DNA of 26,685 bases from a virus, in IMG/VR virus record IMGVR_UViG_3300024346_004737, positions 1 to 26,685 of that record; one strand, given 5' to 3'. The notes below the pieces were generated by a model, which saw nothing but the letters and a program-made list of their open reading frames with translations, was not told the origin of the DNA and searched no databases. Shown here piece by piece: positions 3,482 to 26,244 of this stretch. Every line of letters begins with the position of its first letter. The first letter of the stretch is position 1. Both the position numbers and the translations under genes were made by a program.

Positions 3482-3509
3482 AAAAAGGGACTATATGTCC
3501 CTTTTTTTT
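3482..3509 (+). terminator. Rho-independent terminator after the capsid gene
   Basis: A-tract, then stem GGGAC (3487-3491), loop TATAT, stem GTCCC (3497-3501), then eight T. The flanking A and T runs extend the stem. It begins 23 bases after the capsid stop codon and should end the capsid transcript before the HNH gene. Confidence 0.9.
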
Positions 3510-3512
3510 ATG

Positions 3513-3520
3513 TATATTTG
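3513..3520 (+). promoter_or_regulatory. Possible Bacteroidota-type -7 element
   Basis: TATATTTG fits the Bacteroidota -7 consensus TAnnTTTG and lies directly after the capsid terminator, about 35 bases before the HNH start codon. No matching -33 TTTG is seen at the expected distance, which would fall inside the terminator, so the call is weak. Confidence 0.3.
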
Positions 3521-3542
3521 TGAACAATCAACTTTATGGTTG

Positions 3543-3550
3543 TATTTATA
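3543..3550 (+). promoter_or_regulatory. TATTTATA box 4 bases before the HNH start
   Basis: TATTTATA ends 4 bases before the ATG at 3555. It is the exact reverse complement of the T4 late promoter TATAAATA. Similar boxes stand 5 bases before the ATG at 4494 and 3 bases before the start at 11784. If it acts as a -10 box in this orientation, transcription would start at or near the A of the ATG. Confidence 0.4.
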
Positions 3551-3554
3551 ATAT

Positions 3555-4244
3555 ATGAAGAAAATAGTATTAGAAAAATCTGTTGTTGACGAAATTTTAA
3601 GATTATACAATGATGAAATGTTAGGTTCACCATCTATATCTGAAAAATTAAATATAACAAAACAAGTTGTGTTACGAACACTAAAAGAAAATGATGCGAT
3701 TATTGGTCCTTCCGGTAGAAAATTTAAGGGAGGAAAATCGGAATCGGATAAACGACATTACCTTAAAAATAGAGAAAAACGATTACAATATTTTTCTGAG
3801 TGGCAAAAAGATAATCAAGAACATCGTAAACAGTATCTTAAAGAATACCGTGAAAAAAATGTTGACAATATTAGAAAAACAAAACGTGATTACGAAAGAA
3901 ATCGTAAAGCGAGAGACCCCCTCTATAAACTAATCTCCAATTTCAGAACTGCAATCTACACAGTATTAAAGGAGAGTAACGTAGATAAATACGGACATTA
4001 CTTTGATGTTCTACAATACACTCCCGAGGAATTGATTAATCATTTAGAGAAACAATTTAAGGATGATATGACGTGGGATAACTATGGAGTTTGGCACGTT
4101 GACCATAAGTCACCTATTACATCTTTTGATATTCAGGAGATGGGTGACGAGGAATTTATGAGATGTTGGTGTTTGGATAACCTTCAACCAATGTGGGGTG
4201 AGGAAAATATCCGTAAGTCAAATAAAATATTAGAGGACAATTAG
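3555..4244 (+). CDS. Free-standing HNH endonuclease (homing type)
   Basis: Predicted DNA endonuclease of 229 residues. The C-terminal HNH domain shows H181-V-D183-H184, then a CW...DNLQP segment with N209, then an EEN motif with N218, the usual order for phage HNH homing enzymes. Residues about 1-45 resemble a helix-turn-helix (ISEKLNITKQVVLRTLKEN), followed by a long basic linker rich in Lys and Arg (60-125) likely to bind DNA. It has its own upstream signals after the capsid terminator, which fits an inserted selfish gene beside the conserved capsid gene. Its last codons form half of a terminator stem shared with the convergent gene at 4241-4465. The target site cannot be told from the window. 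Confidence 0.88.
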   Translation: MKKIVLEKSVVDEILRLYNDEMLGSPSISEKLNITKQVVLRTLKENDAIIGPSGRKFKGGKSESDKRHYLKNREKRLQYFSEWQKDNQEHRKQYLKEYREKNVDNIRKTKRDYERNRKARDPLYKLISNFRTAIYTVLKESNVDKYGHYFDVLQYTPEELINHLEKQFKDDMTWDNYGVWHVDHKSPITSFDIQEMGDEEFMRCWCLDNLQPMWGEENIRKSNKILEDN

Positions 4245-4260
4245 TCCTCTTTTTCTTTTT
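4232..4260 (+). terminator. Terminator hairpin formed by two overlapping 3' gene ends
   Basis: Perfect 7-bp stem AGAGGAC (4232-4238) / GTCCTCT (4244-4250) with loop AATTA and a T-rich tail on the plus strand. The stop codons of the HNH gene (TAG, 4242-4244) and of the convergent minus-strand gene (TAA, 4243-4241) both lie in the loop and its edge. The other flank is A/T-rich (AATAAAATATT), so termination in the minus direction is also possible. Confidence 0.8.
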
Positions 4261-4465
4261 TGGAAGTTACTCTAATTGATTTTGAGATAACTTCACATTC
4301 CCCCAATGAGAATATCCCGGCTTGGTAAGCATATTTCACGGCTTGGGTTAGGTAGTAGATACCGTGTTCTTTATCCATAGTTTCAAGGATGGCTTCTAAG
4401 TGTTCTTCGGATTGGATTGGTATTGATTCGAATAGCTTTCCAAATAGTTCAGGTTGTTGTTCCAT
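4241..4465 (-). CDS. Small hypothetical protein (74 aa)
   Basis: Function not recognised. The protein is acidic in its first half, has a central segment YYLTQAVKYAYQAG that looks like an amphipathic helix, and ends with a charged KKEKED tail encoded inside the terminator stem. It overlaps the HNH gene end by 4 bases on the opposite strand and is divergent from the metallopeptidase-like gene, with 28 bases between the two start codons. The TATAAATA box read on the minus strand (4488 to 4481) lies 15 bases before its ATG and could be its late promoter. Confidence 0.65.
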   Translation of the reverse strand: MEQQPELFGKLFESIPIQSEEHLEAILETMDKEHGIYYLTQAVKYAYQAGIFSLGECEVISKSIRVTSKKEKED

Positions 4466-4480
4466 AATTAAATTTTAGTA

Positions 4481-4488
4481 TATTTATA
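4481..4488. promoter_or_regulatory. TATTTATA/TATAAATA box in a divergent gap
   Basis: On the plus strand TATTTATA ends 5 bases before the ATG at 4494. On the minus strand the same bases read TATAAATA, the T4 late promoter consensus, 15 bases before the ATG at 4465. The whole divergent gap is only 28 bases, so this box is the best candidate to drive one or both genes. Confidence 0.45.
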
Positions 4489-4493
4489 AGTAT

Positions 4494-5258
4494 ATGAACA
4501 AAAATAACAAAATACAGATTAAAGAGGTGACTGGTAATGGTGGTTATAACATTAATCAGAACTCCGGTAAAAAAGGTCATAAGATATCCCCCATTGTAAC
4601 GGAATGGGTTGAGATAACTGAAGATACCGTATTAAGTGATATTGTCCCAAACGGTCTAAAAACGACCTCTAATTACGATAAGATAATTAATAAATTTAGA
4701 AAAGATATTCCTGATAATAAAATGAAGGAATATGATTTAATATCTGAGAAGATAAAAAATTTTATTCAGGATAGAGGATATACAATAAAAGTATTAAACT
4801 CTTGTAACACCGGATTTAAAGGTGTAAGAACAAGTAATATGATAATATTATGTTCACCTGAAACATTACCAAATTTTGCATCATTTGTTTATATATTATT
4901 CCACGAATTAAAACACGAACAACAAATGAGTGATTTTGATATGAAAGATTCTTATATGGGAGATATAGAGGATTTTGAAGAATTTTTTAAAATCTATTGG
5001 GAAATGGAAATGGATGCTGATAAGTATGGTAAAGATTGGGTTAACAAAATTGGGGGTGTGTTAAAATTACCTAACGATGTTTATTATTTGGATAAGATGA
5101 TAGAACATTACCCTACAATGTCAACTATGGTTAGACAAATGATGTTACACTTACATAGAGAGGTTCAGACGTTAAAAAGTCGAGGAATGACCTATACGGA
5201 CATTAGTGATTTAGATGTTGTTAAAAGACACTTAAATAGTATTGAAGATATGTTTTAA
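4494..5258 (+). CDS. HExxH metallopeptidase-like protein
   Basis: Predicted zinc metallopeptidase fold, 254 residues. The segment YILFHELKHEQQ carries H137-E138-x-x-H141, and a downstream EMEMDADKYG segment (E172, D174, D176) provides a candidate third metal ligand in the E-x-x-A-D style seen in small bacterial metallopeptidases. Residues 1-60 are polar and low in complexity, perhaps a flexible arm. No signal peptide or membrane segment is seen, so it probably acts in the cytoplasm or on the virion. It stands alone between a divergent gene and a bidirectional terminator. A role in head maturation, lysis or inactivating a host protein are all possible and none is shown. Confidence 0.7.
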   Translation: MNKNNKIQIKEVTGNGGYNINQNSGKKGHKISPIVTEWVEITEDTVLSDIVPNGLKTTSNYDKIINKFRKDIPDNKMKEYDLISEKIKNFIQDRGYTIKVLNSCNTGFKGVRTSNMIILCSPETLPNFASFVYILFHELKHEQQMSDFDMKDSYMGDIEDFEEFFKIYWEMEMDADKYGKDWVNKIGGVLKLPNDVYYLDKMIEHYPTMSTMVRQMMLHLHREVQTLKSRGMTYTDISDLDVVKRHLNSIEDMF

Positions 5259-5260
5259 AT

Positions 5261-5298
5261 AAAAAAAACCCTTACTAAGTAGGGGTTTTTGTTTTTTT
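5261..5298. terminator. Bidirectional terminator between convergent transcripts
   Basis: An A-tract leads into a stem of about 11 bp (5265-5275 with 5279-5289, one T-G pair, loop TAA) followed by a T-rich tract. Both strands end in T runs. The minus-strand stop codon (TAG at 5277-5275) lies within the hairpin, and the plus-strand gene stops just before it at 5258. It separates the plus-strand head region from the long minus-strand region. Confidence 0.9.
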
Positions 5299-5712
5299 GG
5301 AGTTATCCACTTTATCTAAAATACCTTTTAAAGAATACTTGATTTGGGATTTCATTTCATTTTTGAGTTCTTGTCTAATACGTTCTACTTTTGTGTCGTA
5401 CATTTTAGTTAATTTATCCCAATCTCTATTAGACATTAAGATATTACTGTAGTAGTATTCGTGATTGATTACACTAATTTTTTTATCGTCAAGTATAACA
5501 AAGATTCCAAGTTCGGAATGTTTAATATATCTCTGAGATGAAAGGGGGGCAATTAAAAATTTTGAACCTTCGCTTGTTATAAGTTTACGACATATTGATT
5601 TACAGATATGAACATCACCTAATAATCCCGGGTCTTGATAATCAAAATGACTTCTTGATTTAACAATTCGTCTGATTATTAATCTTTTAAAAAATTTAAT
5701 TATTTTATCCAT
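5275..5712 (-). CDS. Hypothetical protein (145 aa)
   Basis: Function not recognised. The N-terminus (MDKIIKFFKRLIIRRIVK) is strongly basic and amphipathic. The middle has short hydrophobic beta-like stretches (LGIFVILDDKKISVIN), and the C-terminal 50 residues look helical and charged (KVERIRQELKNEMKSQIKYS). It is the last minus-strand gene before the bidirectional terminator and is separated from the upstream gene by a 102-base AT-rich gap with its own possible promoter signals. Confidence 0.7.
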   Translation of the reverse strand: MDKIIKFFKRLIIRRIVKSRSHFDYQDPGLLGDVHICKSICRKLITSEGSKFLIAPLSSQRYIKHSELGIFVILDDKKISVINHEYYYSNILMSNRDWDKLTKMYDTKVERIRQELKNEMKSQIKYSLKGILDKVDNSKKTKTPT

Positions 5713-5814
5713 TTTATATTTGATTTATTATTATGGTACAAATATATGGATATTTTTATAAATAAAAAAAATAAAACACAAAAAAATAAAAAAAAATAAT
5801 TTATCTTGTTTTAT
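5713..5814. promoter_or_regulatory. AT-rich gap with possible minus-strand promoter
   Basis: This 102-base gap holds no gene. It is nearly all A/T, with long A runs at 5765-5800. On the minus strand TATATTTG (5746 to 5739) fits the Bacteroidota -7 element TAnnTTTG, 26 bases before the ATG at 5712; no -33 TTTG is found at normal spacing. TATTTATA on the minus strand (5764 to 5757) lies 44 bases before that ATG. No terminator hairpin is visible for the upstream gene ending at 5815. Confidence 0.35.
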
Positions 5815-6198
5815 TTAATTATTTAGACCATTAGGTCCTCCTATTGTAACTGTATTATTTTGTGAGATAGCTCTATTTTGTCCGTTGGTATATATTGCGT
5901 GAGGCATTGTTGTTGCGGTCACAGTACCTGTACCACAATCATCACAATTAAATGATGTTACACCGGCACTATTAACAGGTGTAATACATTGGGTACAAGA
6001 AGTGTATGGTCCATAAAAAATACCGGCTGTAGTATTATTGGTTGTTGTTGCCCCTGAAGCTGTTAAGGTAATACACGTACCATCACCTAATTGATAAATT
6101 TTGTTAAGTGCGTTTGCTAAAATGATGGTGTCGTCCGCAATGAATGTGGTAACACCGCTTAATAAACAAGTTGTTCCTGTAAATAATCTATTTGGCAT
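5815..6198 (-). CDS. Small Cys-containing virion-type protein (127 aa)
   Basis: Probably a small structural or fibre-associated protein. It is rich in Thr, Gly, Asn, Ala and Ile with little charge, as expected for beta-structured surface proteins. Two close cysteine pairs are visible, in YTSCTQC and NCDDCG. It lies at the end of a run of tail/baseplate-type genes on the same strand. The start at 6198 follows an A-run and the palindrome TATTTATAAATA. No named family is recognised, and a metal-binding role of the cysteine pairs would be speculation. Confidence 0.65.
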   Translation of the reverse strand: MPNRLFTGTTCLLSGVTTFIADDTIILANALNKIYQLGDGTCITLTASGATTTNNTTAGIFYGPYTSCTQCITPVNSAGVTSFNCDDCGTGTVTATTMPHAIYTNGQNRAISQNNTVTIGGPNGLNN

Positions 6199-6207
6199 TA
6201 TTTTTTT

Positions 6208-6219
6208 TATTTATAAATA
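6208..6219. promoter_or_regulatory. Palindrome TATTTATAAATA before the 127-aa gene
   Basis: A perfect 12-base palindrome made of overlapping TATTTATA and TATAAATA. On the minus strand TATAAATA ends 9 bases before the ATG at 6198, a suitable place for a T4-type late promoter with a very short leader. Confidence 0.45.
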
Positions 6220-6224
6220 TCTGA

Positions 6225-7685
6225 TTATTCCAAATACTTTAGATTTACTATTTGGAATTTGATTTGTTTTTTATATGTATTTATTTCACCACTATTAATA
6301 ATCTTCATATCGACATAATATTCGTTTGGAATTTTATCTCTTGTGTCAAACATAAAGTAATATTCGTTTGGAGTTCTGTTTATTTTTGTCCAATCTTGAA
6401 CTTGAACTTCTGTTTGTCCTTCTCTAACATATACTCTGTAATGAGCTTCAACATTTGGTTGTAATTTATTTGTTGTATAAGCTTGTTTGATTACTACACC
6501 AACTTTTCTAATATCGGTATTGTATATTTTTTCGTCTTGTTTAATACCGTAAAAATCAAATCCATAAACTTTTGGGTCTTGAGTTGTCGTTCCAATTTGA
6601 ATTGATTTTTTAAATGGGTATAATGTAAAAGTATTTGTAATTGAGTCAACGGCAAATCCGTTGATATATAAATTACTCCAAACATCGTAAAATGAACAAG
6701 GTGTTTTGTATCCTAATAATGGTGGAATAATAACCTCGTATACACCTTTTGTTCTTTGACAAACATCTAAATTAGGGGTTGACAAACCTAAAATTGGGGT
6801 TCCGTTTGCGTCTGAAATAGATACTGACGGTAATGAATCTAAATTAATTGGGTTACCATCCTCATACAGATATAAGTATAATTTATTTACTTTACCTAAT
6901 GAAAAAGTATTTCTATCGTCTTCAATAATGTCATTATAGTTTGTTTCTAAAAATGGTTCATAAAATGTTTGAGTGTGTCTGGTGAAGAATTGAACCTCAT
7001 AGTTTTCAGTCAATCCGGTTAGATTTTCTATTTGAGGTAAGTAAGCAATACCCCAACCAGTAACTCCGGTTAATCCACCTGTTAAAATATTATTAATTTC
7101 ACTTGTCATATCAAATGAAACATTTTCATTACCAAATTGGAAGTGTTGTGTATCCACAATAGTTAGTGAACTATATGGTGTTGAACCTGAATTAATATTA
7201 CTATAAATACCTTGTGATGTCCAACCACTTAATGTTGTTGTTTGAATCCAATTAGATGGTCTTGTTGAGAAATTTTTATCTGAATTACTATAATCATATA
7301 TTAAATCAGCAAAGTCATATCCAACACCTTCATCCCATAATTGATTGTTAGGTATTCTAAATAATATTAAATCAAATGATGTCGCTCTTAATCTACCTTG
7401 AGATGTTGTTGTATTTAATGTCTCAAGATTAAAAGTTGATGTGTTAATCATTCTTAATGTGTGAGTCATTATATCATTACAAGTTGTTGATATAGTTCCG
7501 TCAGAAACTTTTTCTTGTAGTAAAGATAGGTCTAAATCAAATATAAAACGACTGTATCCGTTAGGGTACTGTGATGTGGCTAACGAACCATAAAATATCT
7601 CAGTCACAGGATTTCTTCCTGTGTTTGTTAAGCTATTTGATATGAGTGTGTTATTCTTACTAAAATAGGAATTGTTAATTGACAT
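6225..7685 (-). CDS. Predicted virion structural protein (tail/baseplate-associated)
   Basis: Family not recognised. A protein of 486 residues, rich in Asn, Thr, Ser and aromatic residues with alternating beta-type pattern throughout, as in phage tail, collar or fibre proteins. The frame is open to 7700 with a TTG codon, but the ATG at 7685 (protein starting MSINNSYFSK) is preferred. Residues about 80-250 resemble secreted beta-sandwich modules (for example VSFDMTSEINNILTGG followed by GWGIAYL). The C-terminal third has repeated Ig-like patches (VSISDANGTPI, HYRVYVREG). It follows the spike-like gene by 22 bases and probably shares its transcript. Confidence 0.7.
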   Translation of the reverse strand: MSINNSYFSKNNTLISNSLTNTGRNPVTEIFYGSLATSQYPNGYSRFIFDLDLSLLQEKVSDGTISTTCNDIMTHTLRMINTSTFNLETLNTTTSQGRLRATSFDLILFRIPNNQLWDEGVGYDFADLIYDYSNSDKNFSTRPSNWIQTTTLSGWTSQGIYSNINSGSTPYSSLTIVDTQHFQFGNENVSFDMTSEINNILTGGLTGVTGWGIAYLPQIENLTGLTENYEVQFFTRHTQTFYEPFLETNYNDIIEDDRNTFSLGKVNKLYLYLYEDGNPINLDSLPSVSISDANGTPILGLSTPNLDVCQRTKGVYEVIIPPLLGYKTPCSFYDVWSNLYINGFAVDSITNTFTLYPFKKSIQIGTTTQDPKVYGFDFYGIKQDEKIYNTDIRKVGVVIKQAYTTNKLQPNVEAHYRVYVREGQTEVQVQDWTKINRTPNEYYFMFDTRDKIPNEYYVDMKIINSGEINTYKKQIKFQIVNLKYLE

Positions 7686-7707
7686 AAAATCTTTTAACAA
7701 TAAATAT

Positions 7708-9276
7708 TTAGTTTATTCGAATATTTTGATTTAAGACAGTATTATTTACGTCGGCTAGTAATTGGTTAATACTGGTCTTAGTTGTTTTGGAACCTTGAGT
7801 TGCTTCATCCGGAACCATATTAGCGTGGGGGTGAACGTGATTGTTTAAGAAATCAACTATTTTTTCGATTACTTTAACTAATTCCTCCCCTCTAACAGTT
7901 GAATAAGTTTTTTCAAATAATGTATCTCCGGCACCAACAAATTTATCTTGTGGGATACCATATAGTGTATTTGCAAGATTAATTTGTCCTTTAGGACTTG
8001 TTGAATTTTGGGATAATAAAAACACTTTCTGAGCCCCTAACACACCATATGTAATGTCTTCACTTTGAAATGTGGTTGGAGTGACTGTTTCTTCTTTTAA
8101 CGTTCCTTGAGGACCAAATAACGGTGTACCACCTTTATTTTCTGAAACTAAAAACCATCCTTCTTCAGTTGAATTATTTAATTTAATTTTGTTATAAAAT
8201 CTTTTGTAATTAATGTATTCAAGTATTTCTGTCAATGCGTTACTAGGGGTAAATTTCTTACCTGTTTCGTATGTTTGTTTTGATGGTGTTACAATAAAAG
8301 GAAATTGTTGTGTAATGTTTTGTGGGTTGTTGATTGTAATTCCTGTAAATGTAACATTTGGGTTAAATATTTTAGAAATAAAATCATTAATAATTTTAAC
8401 AGATTCTGAAAATGATTTACCAACAAATGAAACCGATTCTAATTCCGCACCATAATCTTCACCACTTGTTAAGTTTAATATTGTATCAAATTTAAAGTTG
8501 TCAGTATTAACTTTAGGTCCAGGTTTTAGATTATATAGTTTAACAGACCCTGTAAAAACACTTCCTGAAGTATCTAAATTCGCAATATCCCAAACAATCA
8601 TTTTTTGTACTAATTGAACATTTTGTACTAATCTATATTTGGTTTCACTAGGTAATGTTTTTTTAGTTTGTGTAAATCTTGTTAACTGTAAAAAGGCTCT
8701 ATCTTGATTACCTATTGGAAATTTATCTTTGGATAGTTCTTTTGTTTTACCGGCACGAATTAACACTTCATTTTCTTTTACAATGACATCGGCGGTTCCT
8801 CGACCCAATAAAGCATTATCTCCGGGTTCAGGAAAAACACCTTGACTATTTTGGTCACGATATTCACCATCTTGATTTTTAAGGCTCATTCCTTGTTTTA
8901 TTCTGTCACCAACAGCTAAGAATTTTTTTGCACCTTGAAAATTTTCAAAAGGTGTTGTCATTGGAGATGAAAATGGACCTTGTATATAAAATTGACTTTG
9001 AAAAGGGAATTCTTTATTCATATATATAATATGAACATACTCATCTTTTTTAGGTGTTTGACTAATATAAAAAGGTAATAATGGTATAAAAATTAAAGGG
9101 TCTCTCGATGTCCAAGGGTCAGTATCCTCATTCCAATTAACAACTGATGCGATAATATCGTCATAGTTTTTTGTTTCAGGGATAACTCTAAGTCGACCCA
9201 ACATCATTGGGTCCTGATTATTATAGACATATCCGGGAAATAATATTTGATGTTCGTTTTTTTTAGTTATCTCCAT
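7708..9276 (-). CDS. Baseplate hub/spike OB-fold protein (gp5/VgrG-like, no lysozyme domain)
   Basis: Probable central baseplate spike or hub protein, 522 residues. The N-terminus (residues about 10-120) has the OB-fold spike signature: YNNQDPMMLGRLRV resembles the DP..LGRVRV motif at the start of gp5 and VgrG-like OB domains, followed by a DPWTSRDPL segment and a hydrophobic PLLPFY strand. The middle has no recognised domain and no visible lysozyme catalytic motif, unlike T4 gp5. The C-terminal region has a short coiled stretch and NNHVHPHA, similar to the histidine motifs seen in baseplate assembly proteins. It overlaps the 74-aa gene upstream by 14 bases. Confidence 0.72.
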   Translation of the reverse strand: MEITKKNEHQILFPGYVYNNQDPMMLGRLRVIPETKNYDDIIASVVNWNEDTDPWTSRDPLIFIPLLPFYISQTPKKDEYVHIIYMNKEFPFQSQFYIQGPFSSPMTTPFENFQGAKKFLAVGDRIKQGMSLKNQDGEYRDQNSQGVFPEPGDNALLGRGTADVIVKENEVLIRAGKTKELSKDKFPIGNQDRAFLQLTRFTQTKKTLPSETKYRLVQNVQLVQKMIVWDIANLDTSGSVFTGSVKLYNLKPGPKVNTDNFKFDTILNLTSGEDYGAELESVSFVGKSFSESVKIINDFISKIFNPNVTFTGITINNPQNITQQFPFIVTPSKQTYETGKKFTPSNALTEILEYINYKRFYNKIKLNNSTEEGWFLVSENKGGTPLFGPQGTLKEETVTPTTFQSEDITYGVLGAQKVFLLSQNSTSPKGQINLANTLYGIPQDKFVGAGDTLFEKTYSTVRGEELVKVIEKIVDFLNNHVHPHANMVPDEATQGSKTTKTSINQLLADVNNTVLNQNIRIN

Positions 9277-9487
9277 TTGGTTTTATTCTTTTTTGATATT
9301 CTTTTAATATGGTATTGTAAGTTAACTCTAACTTATCTAATTGTTCTGTGCCCTTTAATACCATATTTTTGGTAAATTCAAAATCTTCTTGAATACAATC
9401 CATAGCTAAAGTTAAATCTTTATTTGATGATGTTTTGTATTCTTTTATTATTTGTAATACTTTTTCAGATTTTTCTTTTTGAGTCAT
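9263..9487 (-). CDS. Small coiled-coil hypothetical protein (74 aa)
   Basis: Function not recognised. The whole protein is predicted helical and charged, with heptad-like spacing in KGTEQLDKLELTYNTILKEY. It lies between two large virion-type genes, 2 bases after the upstream gene's end and overlapping the spike-like gene by 14 bases, so it is probably co-translated with them. It may be a small assembly factor or chaperone for the tail, but that is inferred only from place and size. Confidence 0.7.
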   Translation of the reverse strand: MTQKEKSEKVLQIIKEYKTSSNKDLTLAMDCIQEDFEFTKNMVLKGTEQLDKLELTYNTILKEYQKRIKPNGDN

Positions 9488-9489
9488 AA

Positions 9490-11397
9490 TTAGAATTTTT
9501 TACCGTATGAACTGGTAGGTATAGTCAAAAACGCTGGTGTTACCACTAATGGACCTACAGCAACTTGAAGTTTATTATTTTCGGCTTCTTCAATAGCCAT
9601 TGCTTTCATTTGTCCAAATTTACCTAATAAATCAAAATTTGGTGCTCCACTTGGCATCGCCCCTGTTGGGATTCCCATACTTTGTAATTCTTCAATTGCA
9701 CCAATAAACGCTCTTGATTCAGAGTAACCATCCAATAATTGTGCAGCATATAAGATTGGTAATGGAATATCTGCACCAAATCCGGGAATATTTAATAAAT
9801 TTAATAATGCCAAAATATCATCAATTAAATTTTTACATTTACGATAATCGGTTATTAACCCAATAATTGCTAAAAGTAATGCCAATAACTTTAATATCAT
9901 CGCATATTTTTTAACAATTTTTTCTTTTACTATATCTTTAATTATTTGTTGGACAAGTTTTAAAATATCTTCTTTAATTAATTTATATAATTCCTCGACA
10001 AAAATAGCACCTACTTTAGACACTAAATTAATAAAGAATTTTTTAAATATTTTAGCAAAGTCAACAAACGATTTTATATTATCAGCCAATGTATTACCTA
10101 ATGCTTTATACATAACAATAATAGGTAATATCATTTTTGGAGTGATTAACGCTCCAATCATACCATTAGTTATTAATTTTATAAAATTTGTATCGACAAC
10201 AACTTGTGGGTTAACATTTATTCCAACACCAAGCCAAGCCGGATTATTAGCTAAAACATCGGTTATGTTATTCGCGGCATTTTCAAATTCAGAACCTTCA
10301 TAAAAATTTAATTGACCTAACGCACCAACAATTTCGTTAAAATTAACAGGTAAATCAACATTACCACAATCTTCAAATTGGATAACTCCTTTTTTTATGT
10401 TTGCGGTTCTAATATCTATATTTCTTAAATCAATATCGGTAAATTCAAAAAATGAATCATCTATACCATCTAACTCGGCAATTTTAGAAATACCACTAGT
10501 ATCTATCTCTCCATCACTTGCACCACTATCAAAACAAAGACCTAAAATTCTTGCCAAGATTAATTCAGCTTGACTAGCATTTTGAACCTGAGATGTTCCC
10601 GCATCTATTTTCATAGATATAGCTCCGGATAAGGACTCCATAATAGAGGCGATAATATCAGTATCTTCGGACATTCTTATGGTATCGTAATAATCAACCA
10701 TAAATTCACCTACCTTAAGAGGGTTATTTCTTCCTTGTAAATCAACTTCAAACCAAGGACCTGTGGCACCACCTAAAGCTAAAGGTTGGTTTTCCATATA
10801 GGTAATATTAAATAAAGGTTGACCGGATTTACCCACATAATTGTATATGGTAGATTGAGTTGTTAATGTATGTAATTGTCGATTCATTGAAAATGGAATC
10901 TGACCTGATTGAGGTAAGTTTTTCTCATAAACAACAACACCAACTTCATCTTGGGGGTCAATTAATAATCTATTAAATAAATCAATTGAACTAACTTTTA
11001 CATAAATTTTGCCTGTTGTGTATGCTTGTTGTTGGTCACAACCTAATGCGGTTAAACAATCTGAAATAACTATTGTTCTTAATCTTGGTTGAACATTTTT
11101 AATTGTTCTAATTAACAATCTTTTAATATATGATGGTGAACCACTACCATTTCCACCTGTAGTATTGGTTAAATCTAATAGTTGTTCAAATTGGTTTTTA
11201 ACTTGTTTTTGATATCTTTTTGTTTGATTTTTAACACTAGTTAATGATTCTGAAACTTGAGATTTAGTTTTTTCAAAAGAATCTCCAACTTTTTTGTTCG
11301 CATCATCATATTGGGACTTAATGTCCGCAAAAGATTTAGTCGCATTAAGTTTTTTTTGAATTTTATTATAATCAAAATTAATATCTAATGATGGCAT
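9490..11397 (-). CDS. Large structural protein with hydrophobic C-terminal helices
   Basis: Family not recognised; likely a tail or baseplate component, perhaps a hub or tape-measure-like protein. Of 635 residues, 1-75 are Lys/Gln/Ser-rich and probably coiled coil, followed by a glycine linker (81-87). Residues about 105-250 look beta-structured (IYVKVSS, EVGVVVYEKN), about 300-400 acidic and mixed. From about 410 to 540 the protein is hydrophobic and helical, with the clearest membrane-type segment at 499-516 (AMILKLLALLLAIIGLIT). Such segments occur in phage proteins that pass into the host membrane during DNA entry. It is directly upstream of the small coiled-coil gene and the spike-like gene. 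Confidence 0.65.
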   Translation of the reverse strand: MPSLDINFDYNKIQKKLNATKSFADIKSQYDDANKKVGDSFEKTKSQVSESLTSVKNQTKRYQKQVKNQFEQLLDLTNTTGGNGSGSPSYIKRLLIRTIKNVQPRLRTIVISDCLTALGCDQQQAYTTGKIYVKVSSIDLFNRLLIDPQDEVGVVVYEKNLPQSGQIPFSMNRQLHTLTTQSTIYNYVGKSGQPLFNITYMENQPLALGGATGPWFEVDLQGRNNPLKVGEFMVDYYDTIRMSEDTDIIASIMESLSGAISMKIDAGTSQVQNASQAELILARILGLCFDSGASDGEIDTSGISKIAELDGIDDSFFEFTDIDLRNIDIRTANIKKGVIQFEDCGNVDLPVNFNEIVGALGQLNFYEGSEFENAANNITDVLANNPAWLGVGINVNPQVVVDTNFIKLITNGMIGALITPKMILPIIVMYKALGNTLADNIKSFVDFAKIFKKFFINLVSKVGAIFVEELYKLIKEDILKLVQQIIKDIVKEKIVKKYAMILKLLALLLAIIGLITDYRKCKNLIDDILALLNLLNIPGFGADIPLPILYAAQLLDGYSESRAFIGAIEELQSMGIPTGAMPSGAPNFDLLGKFGQMKAMAIEEAENNKLQVAVGPLVVTPAFLTIPTSSYGKKF

Positions 11398-11403
11398 CTT
11401 GTG

Positions 11404-11784
11404 TTATTTTTTCATTTTATAAGAATCATTATCTTTTGAGATATCCTTCTCCATTAGAGTTCTAAATAACTCGTCATCCCCTAAATCAGTTATTGAGAAT
11501 CCACCACCATTATCTTTATTGGAGTTAGATTTTTCCCACATAGAAGATTGTAGTTTAGATAGTGTTAATTTTTTCTCAATACAGTCGTTTACAATTTTTT
11601 GTTGTTTTTCAATTACCGGACCAATAACTGTCATATCTTCCGGCTCTTTCATCATTGTCAACATTTTGTTTTGAATTCTTATTGCAGTGTTTCTTTGTTC
11701 TACAACTTCGTTATAGATTTCCTGCATCAACGATAACATTGATTCTTTTGAAAGATTTATCTCTTTTTTTGTTGGTCTTCCCAT
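11404..11784 (-). CDS. Hypothetical protein next to the late sigma factor (126 aa)
   Basis: Not recognised. It begins GRPTKKEINLSKE, has helical, Met/Gln-rich middle parts, a Gly/Asn-rich hinge near residue 92 and an acidic ending DLGDDELFRTLMEKD. It lies 25 bases after the gp55-like gene and 6 bases before the large structural gene. Two guesses fit the context: a small terminase-like protein (by its N-terminal RPTKK start) or a gp33-like late co-activator (by its neighbour), but no sequence match supports either. The box TATTTATA stands 3 bases before its start codon. Confidence 0.68.
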   Translation of the reverse strand: MGRPTKKEINLSKESMLSLMQEIYNEVVEQRNTAIRIQNKMLTMMKEPEDMTVIGPVIEKQQKIVNDCIEKKLTLSKLQSSMWEKSNSNKDNGGGFSITDLGDDELFRTLMEKDISKDNDSYKMKK

Positions 11785-11787
11785 AAC

Positions 11788-11795
11788 TATAAATA
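11788..11795 (-). promoter_or_regulatory. TATTTATA box 3 bases before the 126-aa gene
   Basis: Read on the minus strand, TATTTATA (11795 to 11788) is followed by GTT and the ATG at 11784. On the plus strand it reads TATAAATA. It lies in the short gap after the gp55-like gene and may start a late transcript for the downstream structural genes. Confidence 0.42.
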
Positions 11796-11809: not shown

Positions 11810-12559
11810 TTATTTAACCATAGTTTGGACTAATTCAAAATACATATTTTTATATTTTTTCATAGACCCTCTAATTTCTTTAGTTGAAAGATTTGTCATT
11901 TCTCTTAATGAAAGTAATATGATATTCTTATTGAATTTATTATTATCATTTCCAACAAAGATATTTTCATAATTGTCGAATAAATCGTATAATGCTTGAC
12001 CAAGTTTAATTTCATTTTCATTTAGATTTTCATTTTTAATGAATAAATCTAATTTAATTAAAAAGTGATGAATAATTCTTTCAGAATCTAAATTATCGTT
12101 TTCAATATAATAAGCAAATCCTTCATCGTTTTCTAAACTAGTTGAAATGTCTTCATAGGATATTTTCCTATTCATTTCTTTTTGGTCTTTAATTATTTGG
12201 CCCATAAGGTAATTTTTACATATGGTTCCAAAATAAGAGTAAGCCTTCTTTTCTTTAGAAGGCTTAAACTTATCTATTTTTGTTATTAAGAATGAGTGAG
12301 TATCTGTATGGATTTCGTTAAAATCCATATCTTTTCTGTATAATTTATATCTTCTAATAATTGAAGATATCATCTTATCTAAAGGTTTTAACAAAAACTC
12401 ATTATAAATTTTATTTCTTTCGTGGTGACACTCAGTTTCTAAAAACCGAACAACAGCTAGTTCTTCTCGAACATCAAAATAATTTAATTGGGTCGGTTTT
12501 CTACCTTTCTTCTTTAACTCAACACTGGTGTCTCCTGTCAAATTAATAATTTCTGTCAT
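11810..12559 (-). CDS. 55: gp55-like late transcription sigma factor
   Basis: Likely phage sigma factor that directs host RNA polymerase to late promoters. Residues about 85-135 carry a sigma region-2-like segment: KFKPSKEKKAYSYFGTICKN, followed by YLMGQIIKDQKEMNRKISYE. T4 gp55 has the matching arrangement ([20 protein letters not shown], then a basic KKERKE). At 249 residues it is longer than T4 gp55 (185) because of extra N- and C-terminal parts. The C-terminus is Met/Lys-rich and lacks an obvious sliding-clamp-binding end such as LDFL. It abuts the GT2 gene (stop and start share base 12559) and contains a perfect 10-bp inverted repeat at 12241-12267. Confidence 0.8.
   Translation of the reverse strand: MTEIINLTGDTSVELKKKGRKPTQLNYFDVREELAVVRFLETECHHERNKIYNEFLLKPLDKMISSIIRRYKLYRKDMDFNEIHTDTHSFLITKIDKFKPSKEKKAYSYFGTICKNYLMGQIIKDQKEMNRKISYEDISTSLENDEGFAYYIENDNLDSERIIHHFLIKLDLFIKNENLNENEIKLGQALYDLFDNYENIFVGNDNNKFNKNIILLSLREMTNLSTKEIRGSMKKYKNMYFELVQTMVK
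12241..12267. repeat. Perfect 10-bp inverted repeat inside the sigma gene
   Basis: TAAGCCTTCT (12241-12250) and AGAAGGCTTA (12258-12267) form a perfect stem with a 7-base loop in the coding region for the KPSKEKKAY segment. There is no T run on either side, so it is not a standard terminator. It could affect translation or mRNA stability, or be chance in an AT-rich gene. Confidence 0.8.
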
Positions 12560-13371
12560 TACGATTCTTGAGATTCGTATTTTATGGCTCTATCATTAAT
12601 AAAGAAAAATTCTTTTTTTGCTGATTCTACCCAAAATTTAACCTCATCAGGTGTTATAACATCATCTCCATTTTTATAGTTCCAAAAAATAGAACCTTCT
12701 CTTAAATTCATATGTTTGTATCCGATTTTAGGGATTGACATAATCTTTATTGAGTTATACGTCATTCTTAAAAAGAATTCATAACCAAATGTTAATTTAA
12801 AAGATGGTTTTAATAAACCATAATCAATAAATGAATCTTTTTTAATTACAATTCCCGATAATTGGAAATTTTGATAATCCATTAATGTCTCGTTAGTTAA
12901 GATTCCCATTTCAGGTGTAAAATTAGCAGCAAATGTTGCCTCATTTGTAAAACCTGCGAATTTCTCAGCATTATCAACATCAACAACTATTGGTAAAAAT
13001 GACTGTACGTCAGGGTATACTTCAGAATATTTTAAAACATTCTTAAACCAAATTGATGAATATTCATCATCAAATTCAAATAATGATACCCAAGTTGATT
13101 TAGCACTTCTAACACCGTAATTAATTTGTGATGAGTAATTAGGGTCTTTAGTCCATTCAACTTTAACTACAGGTAAATCACCAAAATCAAACCCATTTAG
13201 ATATTCAACTAATGAGGTTTCATTTGTGTGAACAATAACAAGTTCATTTATTTCTGTTTTTTGTGTTTTTAATGATTCAATACATTTTTTAAAGTATTCA
13301 TCAAAATCTCTTACTTTAGATGATTTAATTGGTAAAATTACCGATACATCAAATTTTTTAATTTCTTCCAT
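12559..13371 (-). CDS. GT-A (family 2-like) glycosyltransferase
   Basis: Predicted glycosyltransferase of 270 residues. The N-terminus (VSVILPIKSSK) is the usual first strand of GT2 enzymes, followed by an NELVIVHTN strand, an INYGVRSAKSTWVSLFEFDD segment and the D101-D102 pair in the DxD position that binds the metal and nucleotide-sugar. The C-terminal half (GYEFFLRMTYNSIKIMSIPK) also follows GT2 pattern. It lies between the gp55-like gene and a GT-B gene, away from the main sugar cassette. Acceptor and sugar are unknown; it could glycosylate virion protein, DNA or a host glycan. Confidence 0.8.
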   Translation of the reverse strand: MEEIKKFDVSVILPIKSSKVRDFDEYFKKCIESLKTQKTEINELVIVHTNETSLVEYLNGFDFGDLPVVKVEWTKDPNYSSQINYGVRSAKSTWVSLFEFDDEYSSIWFKNVLKYSEVYPDVQSFLPIVVDVDNAEKFAGFTNEATFAANFTPEMGILTNETLMDYQNFQLSGIVIKKDSFIDYGLLKPSFKLTFGYEFFLRMTYNSIKIMSIPKIGYKHMNLREGSIFWNYKNGDDVITPDEVKFWVESAKKEFFFINDRAIKYESQES

Positions 13372-13378
13372 ATTGTTT

Positions 13379-14434
13379 TTAGATTGTTTGTAGTTTAGAT
13401 AATTGTTCTGTAAATGACTCTTGTCTAGTTGTTAGATAACCATCAAATAGTTTAACTGATTCTTTTTCAAAACTTTCTTTGGTTGGTAAAGAATCTACCG
13501 TTTTTTTCATCTCAATAAATAAATTTTCATTTACGTTATCCTCTAACCAATTTTGTAAATAATCAGCGATAAAATCAACCAATTGTATTTTATTATTAAT
13601 CCATAGTCCGTTATCTTCACTCAACCATTCAGGGAGTAAATTAGGGACTAATCCCAATACAGGTACACCACATTTCATAGATTCTAATGGGAATGTTCCA
13701 TAAGCACTTGTTTCATCAATCCAAACTGACAAACAAGATTCGTTTAATCCTGTTGCAAACTCTTTTTCAGTTAAACTTCTCATATCTCTAAATGTTATCC
13801 ATCGATATTGAGGAAACTTAATATAAAAAGTTTTAATTAAGTTTACAGTATCTCTTTGGTCTCTTGAGTGGACCGTAATAATTGGTTTTGCTGGAAACTT
13901 CTGAGGTTTAAAAATATCGGAAATATAAGGTGTTAATACATCAAATGAAACATTTCTCATAACGGTTTGAATTTGTTCTTTTTGTTTTTCAGAAGTTGTA
14001 ATACATTTTAAAAACCCTAAATCATTCCAAGTTTGGCCTGGTTGTAATGTTTCTAACATATAGTCATAAGATTGACAAAGAACAATTTTACCACAAGGTA
14101 AGTTTGTTATTTGAGACATAATGAAACCATATAATTCAGGAATAATAATTAAATCTTCCGGAGATACTTGTAAATTTTGACCTTCAATAGATTGATGAGG
14201 TAAAGTCATATATTCCTCACCTAACCATTCAGACACTCCTTTATAATCGGGAGTTTCGTGTAAAATAATCGGATTGTATCCTGCGTTTAATAATGCCAAA
14301 CCTAATCTGTAGATATAAGCAATAGATGCTTTGGCGTTACCTTTTGTGTCTTGAGTAATAAGATAAATTTTAGATATCTTATTTTTCATATTCTCAATCG
14401 ACAACTCTAATTTTGTAATTTGTTCTTGATTCAT
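13379..14434 (-). CDS. GT-B (family 4-like) glycosyltransferase
   Basis: Predicted glycosyltransferase with two Rossmann-like halves, 351 residues. The N-terminal half includes NAKASIAYIYRLGLALLNAG and a strand IIIPELYG. The C-terminal half has YGTFPLESMKCGVPVLGL (about residues 245-262), the typical donor-binding E-x-M-x-CG-x-PV motif of GT4-type enzymes. It is 7 bases upstream of the GT2-like gene, so the two may act together. The start at 14434 is preceded by AAATTATAAT and no Shine-Dalgarno. Donor sugar is unknown. Confidence 0.8.
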   Translation of the reverse strand: MNQEQITKLELSIENMKNKISKIYLITQDTKGNAKASIAYIYRLGLALLNAGYNPIILHETPDYKGVSEWLGEEYMTLPHQSIEGQNLQVSPEDLIIIPELYGFIMSQITNLPCGKIVLCQSYDYMLETLQPGQTWNDLGFLKCITTSEKQKEQIQTVMRNVSFDVLTPYISDIFKPQKFPAKPIITVHSRDQRDTVNLIKTFYIKFPQYRWITFRDMRSLTEKEFATGLNESCLSVWIDETSAYGTFPLESMKCGVPVLGLVPNLLPEWLSEDNGLWINNKIQLVDFIADYLQNWLEDNVNENLFIEMKKTVDSLPTKESFEKESVKLFDGYLTTRQESFTEQLSKLQTI

Positions 14435-14435
14435 A

Positions 14436-14714
14436 TTATAATTTGTTTAGTAAATTTTTATATAATAACGTATTAAACGCTATTTTAAATGGTATTGATA
14501 TGTTATTTGTTCCTTTAGCACCTAATTGTTCATCAATCTCTTCCGGTTCATCCATAATGATTTCTAACATTAATTTAATAGTTTCGTATTTAATAATGCT
14601 GATTGCCGTATTTTCAGTTTCCCCTGAAATATTTCCTTTAGTTTCTTTAATTTGGACATAATCATCAATTTTGTCTAAATCTAAATAGTAATGTTCTCCT
14701 AATACTTTTAACAT
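14436..14714 (-). CDS. Small hypothetical protein (92 aa)
   Basis: Not recognised. The N-terminus (MLKVLGEHYYLDLDKIDDYV) reads like short beta strands and the rest is helical, with an acidic patch MDEPEEIDEQLG. It lies between the HAD-like gene (sharing base 14714) and the GT-B gene (1 base gap), so it is part of the same transcript. Confidence 0.7.
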   Translation of the reverse strand: MLKVLGEHYYLDLDKIDDYVQIKETKGNISGETENTAISIIKYETIKLMLEIIMDEPEEIDEQLGAKGTNNISIPFKIAFNTLLYKNLLNKL

Positions 14715-15310
14715 TATAATAATTTTGTTAATTCACTTTCTAATTCTTTAATACTTGTTATTGAATAGTCCGTTGAAATATGTTTATTGTATTCCGTTTG
14801 ATATTTTATTATTTTTTTATCGGTCGGATGTTCTAATAATAAGGTAGGATTAGATGTAAGTAAAACATCAATTTCGTCCCACATAGAATTTATTGTAATA
14901 TTACTATAAAATTTGACCTTTTCTAACTGACATCCAAATTTTGATAAGAAGAATAACGACGCTGGTTTTGACCTACCCATTTCATCTGAAACTATTAATA
15001 ACTCGTGGTTATCTCTTAATTTTATGTATAAATCGTTTAAATCATTAAATGTTGAATATTCTGAAGATTGTGAATGACCAAATATTTCCATAGGGAACTC
15101 CTCATATAAAAACGAATACAATTCTTCGTCTGTTTGGAATTTAAAGTGATTTCTAAGGTTTAAACTATCGACCGGTAATGATATCTCATATTTGAAAGAT
15201 TCTTCCTCTTCTAAACCCTCCGTCTTATCTATCATATATTTTTGATAGGTTTGTTCTATTTTATCTATAGTATTTCTTAATACTCCGTTAATCTCAATTG
15301 CTATTCTCAT
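14714..15310 (-). CDS. HAD-like protein with lost catalytic aspartates
   Basis: Resembles small HAD-superfamily phosphatases or 5'-nucleotidases (198 residues), but the active site is altered. Motif I, normally DxDGVL, reads E6-I-N8-G9-V-L. Motif II is probably S108 in LLIVSDE, followed by K115 in GRSKPASLFFL. Motif IV, normally DDxxxN-like, reads IDVLLTSNPTLL (about 147-158), with Thr and Ser where acidic residues are expected. So the fold seems kept while the nucleophile and metal ligands are gone; it may bind rather than hydrolyse a ligand. It overlaps the end of phoH by 17 bases. Confidence 0.6.
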   Translation of the reverse strand: MRIAIEINGVLRNTIDKIEQTYQKYMIDKTEGLEEEESFKYEISLPVDSLNLRNHFKFQTDEELYSFLYEEFPMEIFGHSQSSEYSTFNDLNDLYIKLRDNHELLIVSDEMGRSKPASLFFLSKFGCQLEKVKFYSNITINSMWDEIDVLLTSNPTLLLEHPTDKKIIKYQTEYNKHISTDYSITSIKELESELTKLL

Positions 15311-16055
15311 CCGGTTCGTTATCGTATTTACGTAATATCTTACTAATTAATGGGTTCCTTACAATATCATTTTTGTCTTTAAACTCAAATGTTGATACAT
15401 AATCATCTTCTCTAAATTTTTCAATCGCGTCCCATAAACCACTATGAGTTTTATTTTTATATTTATCGGATTGTTCCACGTCACCTGAAATAAAGAATTT
15501 ACTGTTAAACCCAATTCTTGTTAAAAGAAGTTTCATTTGACTTGGAGAAGCATTTTGACCTTCCTCAAATATTAATATCGAATTATCAATATTCATACCT
15601 CTCATAAACGCTAACGCAAATACTTCAATAACTTCTATCTCTTTAAGTTTTTCACGAGATTCTTTTCCAATAATTTTATTTAATAAATAATAAGATGGGA
15701 AAATATATGGGTCTAATTTTTCTTCTACGTTACCTGGTAGTGAACCTAATTTTTCTTCGGCTTCGACTGCCGGCCTAACAATAATAATTTTCTCGTAAGG
15801 AGTTTTTGGGTCCGACAATAAATCAATCGCCGCTTTCATTGTTATGTAACTTTTACCAACACCTGCTGGTCCGGAACAAACTGTAATTTCACTTTCAATT
15901 AGAGTATCGTAATACTTCTTTTGATTTACGGTTAGAAACTTTTCTTTAGTTTTTCGTTTAATGATTTGACCAATTAAATCTTTTTTACTTACCGGTTTAC
16001 CGGTGACTTCCGGAGTCGGAGTTGTTGTTGGTTTTCTTTTTCTAGCTTCAGCCAT
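15294..16055 (-). CDS. phoH: PhoH-like ATPase
   Basis: PhoH-family P-loop ATPase of 253 residues, a gene very common in T4-like and marine phages with an uncertain role in RNA metabolism or phosphate stress. Walker A is G62-PAGVGK-S69 after the LTVNQKKYYDTL segment; the PhoH region VRPAVEAEEKLGSLPG follows at about 93-108. The Walker B segment is ILIFEEGQNAS (160-170), where the family more often has DEAQN; Glu replaces Asp and Gly replaces Ala. A GD motif (FISGDVEQ) follows. The N-terminal 25 residues are a basic, Pro/Thr-rich tail. It is 7 bases after the gmd stop, at the end of the sugar cassette. Confidence 0.92.
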   Translation of the reverse strand: MAEARKRKPTTTPTPEVTGKPVSKKDLIGQIIKRKTKEKFLTVNQKKYYDTLIESEITVCSGPAGVGKSYITMKAAIDLLSDPKTPYEKIIIVRPAVEAEEKLGSLPGNVEEKLDPYIFPSYYLLNKIIGKESREKLKEIEVIEVFALAFMRGMNIDNSILIFEEGQNASPSQMKLLLTRIGFNSKFFISGDVEQSDKYKNKTHSGLWDAIEKFREDDYVSTFEFKDKNDIVRNPLISKILRKYDNEPDENSN

Positions 16056-16062
16056 TTTTTAA

Positions 16063-17052
16063 TTATTGTTGTTTATAATATGTTAACCAATGTTCAATCA
16101 TTTCGTCTAACATAGTTTCAAAGGTATAGTCGTGAGACCAACCTGTGGCTTTTACTAATTTTGAGGAATCTCCTTTTAAATTATGTAATTCTTCTGGTCT
16201 TAAAAATTTTTCATCTTGTGTTACATATAATTTCCAATCTAATTCTAACTTACCAAATACATACTCACATAAATCTTGAACTGAATGTGAAATACCGGTT
16301 GAACAAACAAAATCATCTGATGTTTCTAATTGTAAAATTTCCCACATTGCTTTAACATAATCTTTTGCGTGACCCCAATCTCTTGTAGCATCTAAATTAC
16401 CTAATTTTAATCCATTAGATAATCCTAATTTAATTTTCACGGCTTCTTTACACACTTTATTTGTGACAAAGTTAGTTCCTCGTCTTGGTGATTCGTGATT
16501 AAATAAAATACCGTTTGAAACAAACATTCCATAAGAATTTCTATAATTACGGCAAATGTTATAACTAAAAACTTTTGCACATCCATATGGTGATACTGGA
16601 TTTAATGGAGTTGATTCTCTTTGATAACCATCTGAATCTATTGAATTCCCAAACATTTCTGAAGAAGACGCTTGGTAAATTTTAATAGATGAATCTAATA
16701 ATTTAACCGCCTCTAAAACATTTAAAGTTCCTATTCCCGTAACATTTGCGGTGTATAATGGTTGGTCAAATGATATTCTTACGTGTGATTGTGCGGCTAA
16801 ATTATATATTTCAATTGGTTTAACTTCACTAATAACTCTAACTAATGATGACAAATCAGTTAAATCAGCATAATGTAATTTAACTTTATCGTATACTTTA
16901 TCTAATCGTGATGTTTGGTTTTCTGAAACAGAATTTCTTTTTAAAGTTCCGTGAACTTTATACCCTTTTTCTAATAAAAATTCTGAAAGATACGACCCAT
17001 CTTGACCGTTTATACCTGTAATTAACGCTATTTTATTTTCTTGTTTTTTCAT
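16063..17052 (-). CDS. gmd: GDP-mannose 4,6-dehydratase
   Basis: Converts GDP-D-mannose to GDP-4-keto-6-deoxy-D-mannose, the branch point to GDP-fucose, GDP-colitose, GDP-perosamine or GDP-rhamnose. An extended SDR of 329 residues (E. coli Gmd 373). The NADP-binding motif G13-x-x-G16-x-x-G19 (TGINGQDGSYL) is clear, followed by a LAAQSHV segment, the ASSSEMFG segment with S131 and E132 near the catalytic position, and YGCAK with Y156 and K160. FNHESPRRGTNFVT is diagnostic for GMD. It overlaps the fcl-like gene by 20 bases, pointing to coupled translation. Confidence 0.95.
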   Translation of the reverse strand: MKKQENKIALITGINGQDGSYLSEFLLEKGYKVHGTLKRNSVSENQTSRLDKVYDKVKLHYADLTDLSSLVRVISEVKPIEIYNLAAQSHVRISFDQPLYTANVTGIGTLNVLEAVKLLDSSIKIYQASSSEMFGNSIDSDGYQRESTPLNPVSPYGCAKVFSYNICRNYRNSYGMFVSNGILFNHESPRRGTNFVTNKVCKEAVKIKLGLSNGLKLGNLDATRDWGHAKDYVKAMWEILQLETSDDFVCSTGISHSVQDLCEYVFGKLELDWKLYVTQDEKFLRPEELHNLKGDSSKLVKATGWSHDYTFETMLDEMIEHWLTYYKQQ

Positions 17053-17935
17053 AATTTTTTATAAACCAATTTATTGTTTCTTTTAACCCTTCTTCGATTG
17101 GGGTAAACTCAAAATTAGGTAAATACGATTTTAATTTTGAATTGTCGGATGGTTTTCTAAATTGACCATCAGGTTTTGTTTTGTCAAAGATTACTTTCCC
17201 TTTAAAGTTAAACTCATTAACTAATAAATCAACCAAATCTTTAATACTAATTTCATTTGAATTACTGAATATAATAGGTTCCGATTCGTTATAATTATCT
17301 AACGCCCATTCAGATAATTTGGCAATATCTTTAGAATATATAAATTCTCTTAACGGTGTTCCACTACCCCAAACAACAAAGTCCGTATTTTCTCTTTGAG
17401 CAATATACATTTTATGTAGTAACATTGGTATTACGTGCCCGGATTCTAATGAAAAGTTATCGTTAGGTCCGTAAATGTTTGTAGGTATAACTGAAACATA
17501 TTCTAAACCATATTGTTCTCTATACGCTCTGATTTGAATATCCGCCATTCTTTTTGCGTAAGCATACGGATAATTTGACGAGTGAGGTTCACCCAAATGA
17601 ATTTTTTTTTCTGTTATAGGGTATTCAATGTTGTCGGGGAATACACAAGTTGATAAAAAAGATACTAATTTTTTAACGTTATGTAACCTTGATGACTCAA
17701 TAACATTTGTATTTATCATTATATTATCATAAAAGAATTCTCCTTTATAATTCATATTAGCGCTAAGACCACCTACTTTACCGGCACAATGGATAACGTG
17801 TGTTGGTTTATAATCGTTAAACATTTTATTAGTTTCCTCAACATTTCTTAAATCGTATTGCTTTCCGATTTTTATTTCTGAGGTGATTGATGAACCAACT
17901 AACCCATTACCTCCGGTTACTAATAATTTTCTCAT
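17033..17935 (-). CDS. fcl: GDP-L-fucose synthase / GDP-colitose synthase type epimerase-reductase
   Basis: SDR enzyme of 300 residues that epimerises and reduces a GDP-4-keto sugar. It has VTGGNGLVGS at the N-terminus, then AGKVGG, and the catalytic set of the Fcl family: S95 and C97 in LSTCVFP, Y124 and K128 in YPYAYAK, and H167 in SGHVIP. Fcl makes GDP-L-fucose from the Gmd product. The related ColC makes GDP-L-colitose from the ColD product, and the two families cannot be told apart by eye. Since a ColD-type gene lies directly upstream (4-base overlap) and gmd downstream (20-base overlap), a ColC role is as plausible as Fcl. Confidence 0.9.
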   Translation of the reverse strand: MRKLLVTGGNGLVGSSITSEIKIGKQYDLRNVEETNKMFNDYKPTHVIHCAGKVGGLSANMNYKGEFFYDNIMINTNVIESSRLHNVKKLVSFLSTCVFPDNIEYPITEKKIHLGEPHSSNYPYAYAKRMADIQIRAYREQYGLEYVSVIPTNIYGPNDNFSLESGHVIPMLLHKMYIAQRENTDFVVWGSGTPLREFIYSKDIAKLSEWALDNYNESEPIIFSNSNEISIKDLVDLLVNEFNFKGKVIFDKTKPDGQFRKPSDNSKLKSYLPNFEFTPIEEGLKETINWFIKNYEKTRK

Positions 17936-19858: not shown

Positions 19859-19862
19859 AATT

Positions 19863-20627: not shown

Positions 20628-20638
20628 TTTAATTTATT

Positions 20639-21550: not shown

Positions 21551-21551
21551 A

Positions 21552-25421: not shown

Positions 25422-25424
25422 ATT

Positions 25425-26243: not shown

Positions 26244-26244
26244 A

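Follow-up and report, generated by a model that had tools for sequence, protein, structure and literature searches.

A candidate late-promoter core with putative leaderless and AAA-leader gene classes in a large group of T4-like phages that probably infect Bacteroidota

Results

Octamers and a sigma gene in one window

The window analysed here, the whole 26.7-kb stretch of a virus record (IMG/VR IMGVR_UViG_3300024346_004737, positions 1-26,685), encodes a T4-type major capsid gene (phrog_138 match) and a gp55-like late sigma factor, and in the gaps between its genes it carries copies of an octamer, TATTTATA, that is the subject of this study. The octamer is the exact reverse complement of TATAAATA, the T4 late promoter, which is used by gp55 together with gp33 and the sliding clamp. 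A first-pass annotation had proposed these octamers as possibly leaderless late promoters, and the copies it reported at 3543-3550, 4481-4488, 5757-5764, in the palindrome 6208-6219 and at 11788-11795 are all present, three of them (3543, 4481 and 11788-11795) lying 3-5 nt before an ATG, with the sigma gene, as it had said, in the same window. Its remark that copies occur only in gaps holds for six of the seven exact copies, the other (7202-7209) being inside a coding region; among its five sites it counted one, at 5757, that we discount below, and it overlooked a conserved box at 7699-7706. The features that carry the argument are listed here, with class names that are predictions.

3543..3550, + strand: TATTTATA box, 4 nt before ATG 3555, putative leaderless class, T before the ATG
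3555-4244: endonuclease VII-like gene, downstream of box 3543..3550
4481..4488, + strand: TATTTATA box, 5 nt before ATG 4494, putative leaderless class (leader 0-2 nt), T before the ATG
6208-6219: palindrome of two overlapping octamer copies
6212..6219, - strand: TATTTATA box, 13 nt before ATG 6198, AAA class
7699..7706, - strand: TATTTATT box, 13 nt before ATG 7685, AAA class, predicted RNA start 7695
11404-11784, - strand: gene directly downstream of the sigma gene
11788..11795, - strand: TATTTATA box, 3 nt before ATG 11784, putative leaderless class
11810..12559, - strand: gp55-like late sigma factor, 249 aa, proposed reader of the box

The gaps make up about 408 bp of the window and have a G+C content of 14%. 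They hold six copies of the octamer against 0.54 expected from dinucleotide shuffles of the same gaps (P ~2e-4), and at three starts TATTTATA falls 2-5 nt upstream of the ATG (actual spacers 3-5 nt) against 0.04 expected from gap shuffles. Enrichment over the whole window was also looked for and was not found (7 seen against 9.2 expected). At related starts the boxes keep their places: the spacer is 3-5 nt in 91/94 relatives of gene 11784 and 11-17 nt in 109/109 relatives of gene 7685, with diverged flanks in both cases, 10-15 nt in 28/28 relatives of the start at 6198, where the predicted RNA start (6208) coincides with a run of 8 A, and 2-4 nt in 27/33 relatives of gene 3555. Relatives of the gene at ATG 4494, downstream of box 4481..4488, were sought among the related loci and none were found. 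The open reading frame list gives TTG 7700 as the start of the gene at 6225-7700; because of the conserved box, its spacing and the ATGTCAATT start in relatives, we take ATG 7685 as the start instead.

The motif in related phages

Close relatives of the window are numerous in IMG/VR, and Flavobacterium phage immuto is a distant cultured relative. We compared five large related phage contigs (G001-G004 and G006; 272-322 kb, possibly incomplete) by counting all 8-mers upstream of genes, with no prior motif and with dinucleotide shuffles as background. In all five, ATATTTAT/TATTTATA stood at or near the top of the ranking, in 47-63 gaps against 4-7 in shuffles (about 10-fold), and phage immuto carries the box in 24 gaps against 2.0 in shuffles. 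The comparison that the first-pass annotation had named as capable of overturning its reading, octamer frequency upstream of starts against shuffled gaps, was thus made in the window and in its relatives, and the reading survived it. A second strong upstream motif, TATCTTTG (7-23 occurrences in the five genomes against 0.1-0.3 in shuffles), fits the -7 element of Bacteroidota sigma A promoters, described as TAnnTTTG with a nearly invariant G at -5 (PMC6847099, PMC9723704).

The box has a direction. Among co-directional gaps of at least 12 nt in the five relatives, 29-48% hold the sense form TATTTATA/ATATTTAT and 4-7% the antisense form TATAAATA/ATAAATAT, a form that is frequent in divergent gaps alone, being there the TATTTATA of the neighbouring gene. 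The first-pass annotation had the T4 box in use, read backwards before three genes and facing a gene in forward orientation in two cases; neither proposal is supported, as the sense strand reads TATATTTAT and the copies at 3543, 4481, 11795-11788 and 6219-6212 all read TATTTATA toward their genes. An expectation-maximization motif model of the late box likewise gave TATATTTAT. The late box therefore looks like a Bacteroidota -7 element, TAHHTTTG, in which A takes the place of the G and T comes next; where the host has its nearly invariant G, the model has A in about 79% of sites and G in about 20%.

Beyond this group, a 400-kb Saprospiraceae genome segment showed no late-box excess (11/267 gaps), and the ~41 kb searched in each of two huge phages, LR756508 and LR756511, lacks the motif. 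In Microcystis phage Mel-JY01, ATATTTAT occurs upstream of genes 7 times against 0.4 expected; we rejected it as an instance of the same arrangement, its copies lying mostly ~30 nt upstream of starts that follow Shine-Dalgarno-like sequences.

Two classes of distance to the start codon

With each gene family taken once, the distance from TATTTATA to the ATG is bimodal: 73 families at 3-5 nt, 5 at 6-10 nt and 62 at 11-15 nt, where a flat distribution would place 54 families at 6-10 nt. The spacer class is retained in most conserved families. A wider set with less redundancy, comprising 623 gene starts, gives a similar but less sharp picture, with 24 boxes at 6-10 nt. The ATG beside the box is a real start: codon periodicity sets in at codon 2 and is not seen upstream of the ATG, and the preceding base is T in 89% of box-adjacent starts as compared to 51% in operons. 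These observations support the reading of the 3-5 nt class as leaderless mRNA, as the first-pass annotation had suggested, since many of the distances would place the transcript start at the start codon.

The host-type box of these phages points in the same direction. It peaks sharply at spacer 4 (35/160 genes with such a box), and given that transcription in Flavobacterium johnsoniae starts 4 or 5 nt after the -7 element TAHHTTTG (PMC6847099), this spacer would put +1 on the A of the ATG. In the Saprospiraceae segment, host-type elements lie that close to an ATG in 2/48 cases, in agreement with the 5.5% share of leaderless mRNAs in Flavobacterium psychrophilum (PMC9723704).

An AAA rule at predicted short-leader starts

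We asked how often the three bases beginning 3 nt after the octamer are AAA (background 11%). They are in 95/110 families (86%) with the box 11-16 nt before the ATG and in 21/95 families with longer distances. Boxes at least 17 nt upstream include many chance matches, and we reran the contrast on conserved families alone, obtaining 18/18 at 11-16 nt and 3/15 at longer distances; with a small shift allowed, AAA is found at 152/158 sites. It is from the box, not from the ATG, that the A's keep a fixed distance. Of the 623 starts in the wider set, 103 have a box at 11-16 nt, with AAA in 76%. The host-type box follows the same rule at its own expected start site (AAA in ~18/28 at spacers of 10-17 nt as compared to ~4/85 at larger spacers). 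That two promoter types share the rule, each at its own start site, suggests that the rule reflects some property of short-leader mRNAs at their 5' end, and it lends support to the start sites that we place.

Genes behind the boxes

Box-bearing families include the terminase large subunit, portal, prohead protease, tail tube, baseplate hub, gp25-like baseplate wedge, head-tail adaptor and endolysin, and in immuto the terminase, portal, tail sheath, tail completion, baseplate hub and tape measure genes have the box. Host-type boxes sit before primase, ATP-dependent protease and peptidase genes. This split fits what would be expected of late and early promoters, and with its enrichment upstream of genes and its orientation toward them, the box behaves as a late-gene promoter, as was first proposed.

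One family in contig G004 (L213-L227; the family of 100423-101947), of ~507 aa and without a Pfam match, is present there in at least 7 copies, almost every one of which has a box 3-4 nt before the ATG; it may be an expanded or mobile cassette equipped with a leaderless promoter of its own.

The gp55-like sigma factor

The 249-aa product of 11810..12559 matches phrog_234 (late sigma factor) weakly (E 4e-4), and Pfam Sigma70_r2 falls below its cut-off. A profile search against PDB sequences gave no credible match, and for this reason its fold was predicted and compared. The model, mostly helical with a mean predicted local distance difference test score (pLDDT) of 72, has T4 gp55 as its top match (7d7c_F; Z 10.3 over 128 residues), and nearly all other matches listed are sigma factors, so that the protein is predicted to have a sigma-70 region 2 fold like that of gp55. 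The gene is single-copy in each of the five relatives. A distant homologue (hmmsearch E 4.5e-17) is immuto26A_153, annotated as hypothetical, at MW353175.1 78174-78872 (L243:28174-28872); a tblastn search of the sigma against 50,697 GenBank phage records gave no match at E 1e-3. The phage sigma is most likely the protein that reads the box.

Other elements of the window

The following features fall outside the late-box set.

3513..3520, + strand: host-type -7 element TATATTTG, upstream of gene 3555
5739..5746, - strand: host-type -7 element TATATTTG, 26 nt before ATG 5712
5757..5764, - strand: TATTTATA copy, 44 nt before ATG 5712
7202..7209, + strand: exact octamer inside a coding region, antisense to the gene

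The copy at 5757..5764 is probably not a functional box, since 0/75 related starts have a box within 40 nt upstream; a TAHHTTTG occurs at a similar position in many relatives of the start at 5712, and the element at 5739..5746 is likely the real promoter of that gene. The copy at 7202..7209, inside a gene and antisense to it, we rejected as a chance occurrence. Between the major capsid gene and gene 3555 (3483-3554) there is a terminator-like hairpin with a T run, then TATATTTG, then the putative leaderless late box; this TATATTTG is retained in L229, a close relative, and in some others. The endonuclease VII-like gene may thus have an early and a late promoter to itself.

The gene preceding the major capsid gene contains (700-820) a short acidic peptide, EMDDKDEVFEYDV, in three near-exact tandem repeats. 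After the structural genes comes a long stretch of sugar and glycosylation genes (12559-26685; epimerases, an aminotransferase, glycosyltransferase-like genes), among them a dehydratase (16063-17052) with 76% identity to its counterpart in a Bacteroidota assembly. This sugar gene, the cultured relative immuto and the host-type promoter motif together suggest that the host of the phage group is probably a member of the Bacteroidota.

Discussion

We propose, with a probability of about 0.78, that TATTTATA is the late-promoter core of a large group of T4-like phages that probably infect Bacteroidota, that a gp55-like sigma is its reader, and that the genes it serves fall into a leaderless and an AAA-leader class. 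The sense-strand element would be (T/G)ATATTTATA, with RNA starting ~4 nt after the octamer: the phage sigma, on the host core polymerase, would open TATATTTAT, and RNA would begin on an A about 4 nt later. With the box 3-5 nt from the ATG, the transcript would start at the AUG or within ~2 nt of it and be translated as leaderless mRNA, and ribosomes are said to take such mRNA when the AUG is 5'-terminal (Brock et al. 2008, as cited in PMC5312081). With the box 11-16 nt from the ATG, the transcript would start with AAA and have a leader of 8-13 nt. Leaders of ~3-7 nt would be avoided, and longer leaders would be free of the AAA rule.

Several points weigh against this proposal. The start sites are placed by inference from the sequence, and gene starts were called by a simple first-ATG rule. 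A spacer of 5 nt could give a 2-nt leader, which is not strictly leaderless, and in a wider, more divergent set the spacers of 6-8 nt are occupied in 17/270 cases. Two replication genes (helicase and polymerase) also have a box-like octamer, farther upstream. The link between sigma and box is drawn from genomic company and from the fold; the sequence match of the sigma is weak (E 4e-4), and its model has a mean pLDDT of 72.

Among other explanations, host sigma A in its unmodified form might take the box for a TAHHTTTG variant, or a host sigma redirected by some other phage protein might read it, with the gp55-like protein otherwise employed. Box and host element do have A-11, T-8, T-7 and T-6 in common (PMC6847099), and the phages also use TATCTTTG; but the late box mostly has A where host promoters have a nearly invariant G, the Saprospiraceae segment has no excess of this box, and the genes behind the box are mostly late structural ones, with host-type boxes before primase and proteases, all of which makes a host reader improbable in our view. 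The classic T4 late promoter, in its usual or in both orientations, is brought to mind by the reverse-complement identity and by the presence of a gp55-like sigma. We find it scarcely credible given the rarity of TATAAATA in co-directional gaps, the flanks that extend the octamer to TATATTTAT, and the AAA start that lies downstream of TATTTATA.

A translation signal beside the start codon, rather than a promoter, would suit a box so often near the ATG, and Flavobacterium is without Shine-Dalgarno signals and favours A-rich starts (PMC6847099). Yet the box seldom precedes genes whose gaps are small (20 hits for 730 as compared to 336 for 1007 with larger gaps, although small gaps leave little room), it stays 24-60 nt upstream in some conserved families, the AAA is tied to the box rather than the ATG, and a host promoter element has the same geometry; we consider this reading very unlikely. 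As for the octamers being chance products of AT-rich gaps, which the base composition of the gaps and the absence of excess over the whole window would allow, shuffles fall far short of the six copies in the window, yield about a tenth of the observed count in the five genomes and produce no fixed spacing. The conservation at genes 11784 and 7685 likewise speaks against chance, which is refuted for all sites but 5757 and 7202 (4481 having no relatives) and deserves almost no weight for the system as a whole.

The proposed late promoter resembles that of T4 in being short, in preceding late structural genes, in having a -10-like box with no obvious -35 element and in the gp55-like sigma of the same genome. 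It differs in reading TATATTTAT and not TATAAATA on the sense strand, in the many boxes 3-5 nt before an ATG, in the A at the presumed start, and in that no Shine-Dalgarno-like signal was noticed. It shares with Bacteroidota sigma A promoters the four bases named above, and its presumed start site lies about as far away as theirs (PMC6847099, PMC9723704), whereas it has A for G at -5, then T, mostly phage structural genes downstream, and a predicted leaderless share that is large as compared to the 5.5% of F. psychrophilum. As in leaderless mRNAs of bacteria and phages, a -10-like box stands just upstream of the start codon with a predicted 5'-terminal AUG; here, in addition, a second class in the same genome would have 8-13 nt AAA leaders, with few boxes between the classes. 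The giant phages AR9 and phiKZ also have their own short late promoter motifs, but they use phage-encoded multisubunit polymerases and motifs of the form AACA-6N-TA/G or TATG, and AR9 leaders are 26-491 nt long (PMC5312081).

The AAA may help ribosomes to load directly, may reflect an initiator preference whose effect is confined to short leaders, or may allow the polymerase to slip and add A's as in poxviruses, whose late mRNAs have 5' poly(A) leaders made by slippage (PMC12722222). Like poxvirus late mRNAs, the AAA-class genes have a run of A at the start site and a very short encoded leader (PMC12722222), and the run of at least 3 A that a slippage leader would need is present; unlike them, they involve an unrelated polymerase and host. 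We can only speculate, and rather doubtfully, that mRNA 5' ends are strictly either the AUG itself or AAA, 5-10 nt and then AUG, and that slippage on the AAA makes a poxvirus-like 5' poly(A) leader enabling loading without Shine-Dalgarno pairing on leaders that are otherwise too short.

In a literature search that covered few subscription journals, we found no leaderless late promoters in Bacteroidota phages and no transcript maps of Flavobacterium phages. If our proposal holds, a common, mainly metagenomic phage group would gain a late promoter defined by its sequence, a sigma that probably matches it and a rule for leader length. Much of the scheme can be tested in immuto, a cultured Flavobacterium phage with the box and a distant sigma homologue. 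These phages may thus represent a natural experiment on how Bacteroidota ribosomes start translation without Shine-Dalgarno pairing, in which leaders of zero length, or of at least 8 nt with AAA, would be used and those in between avoided.

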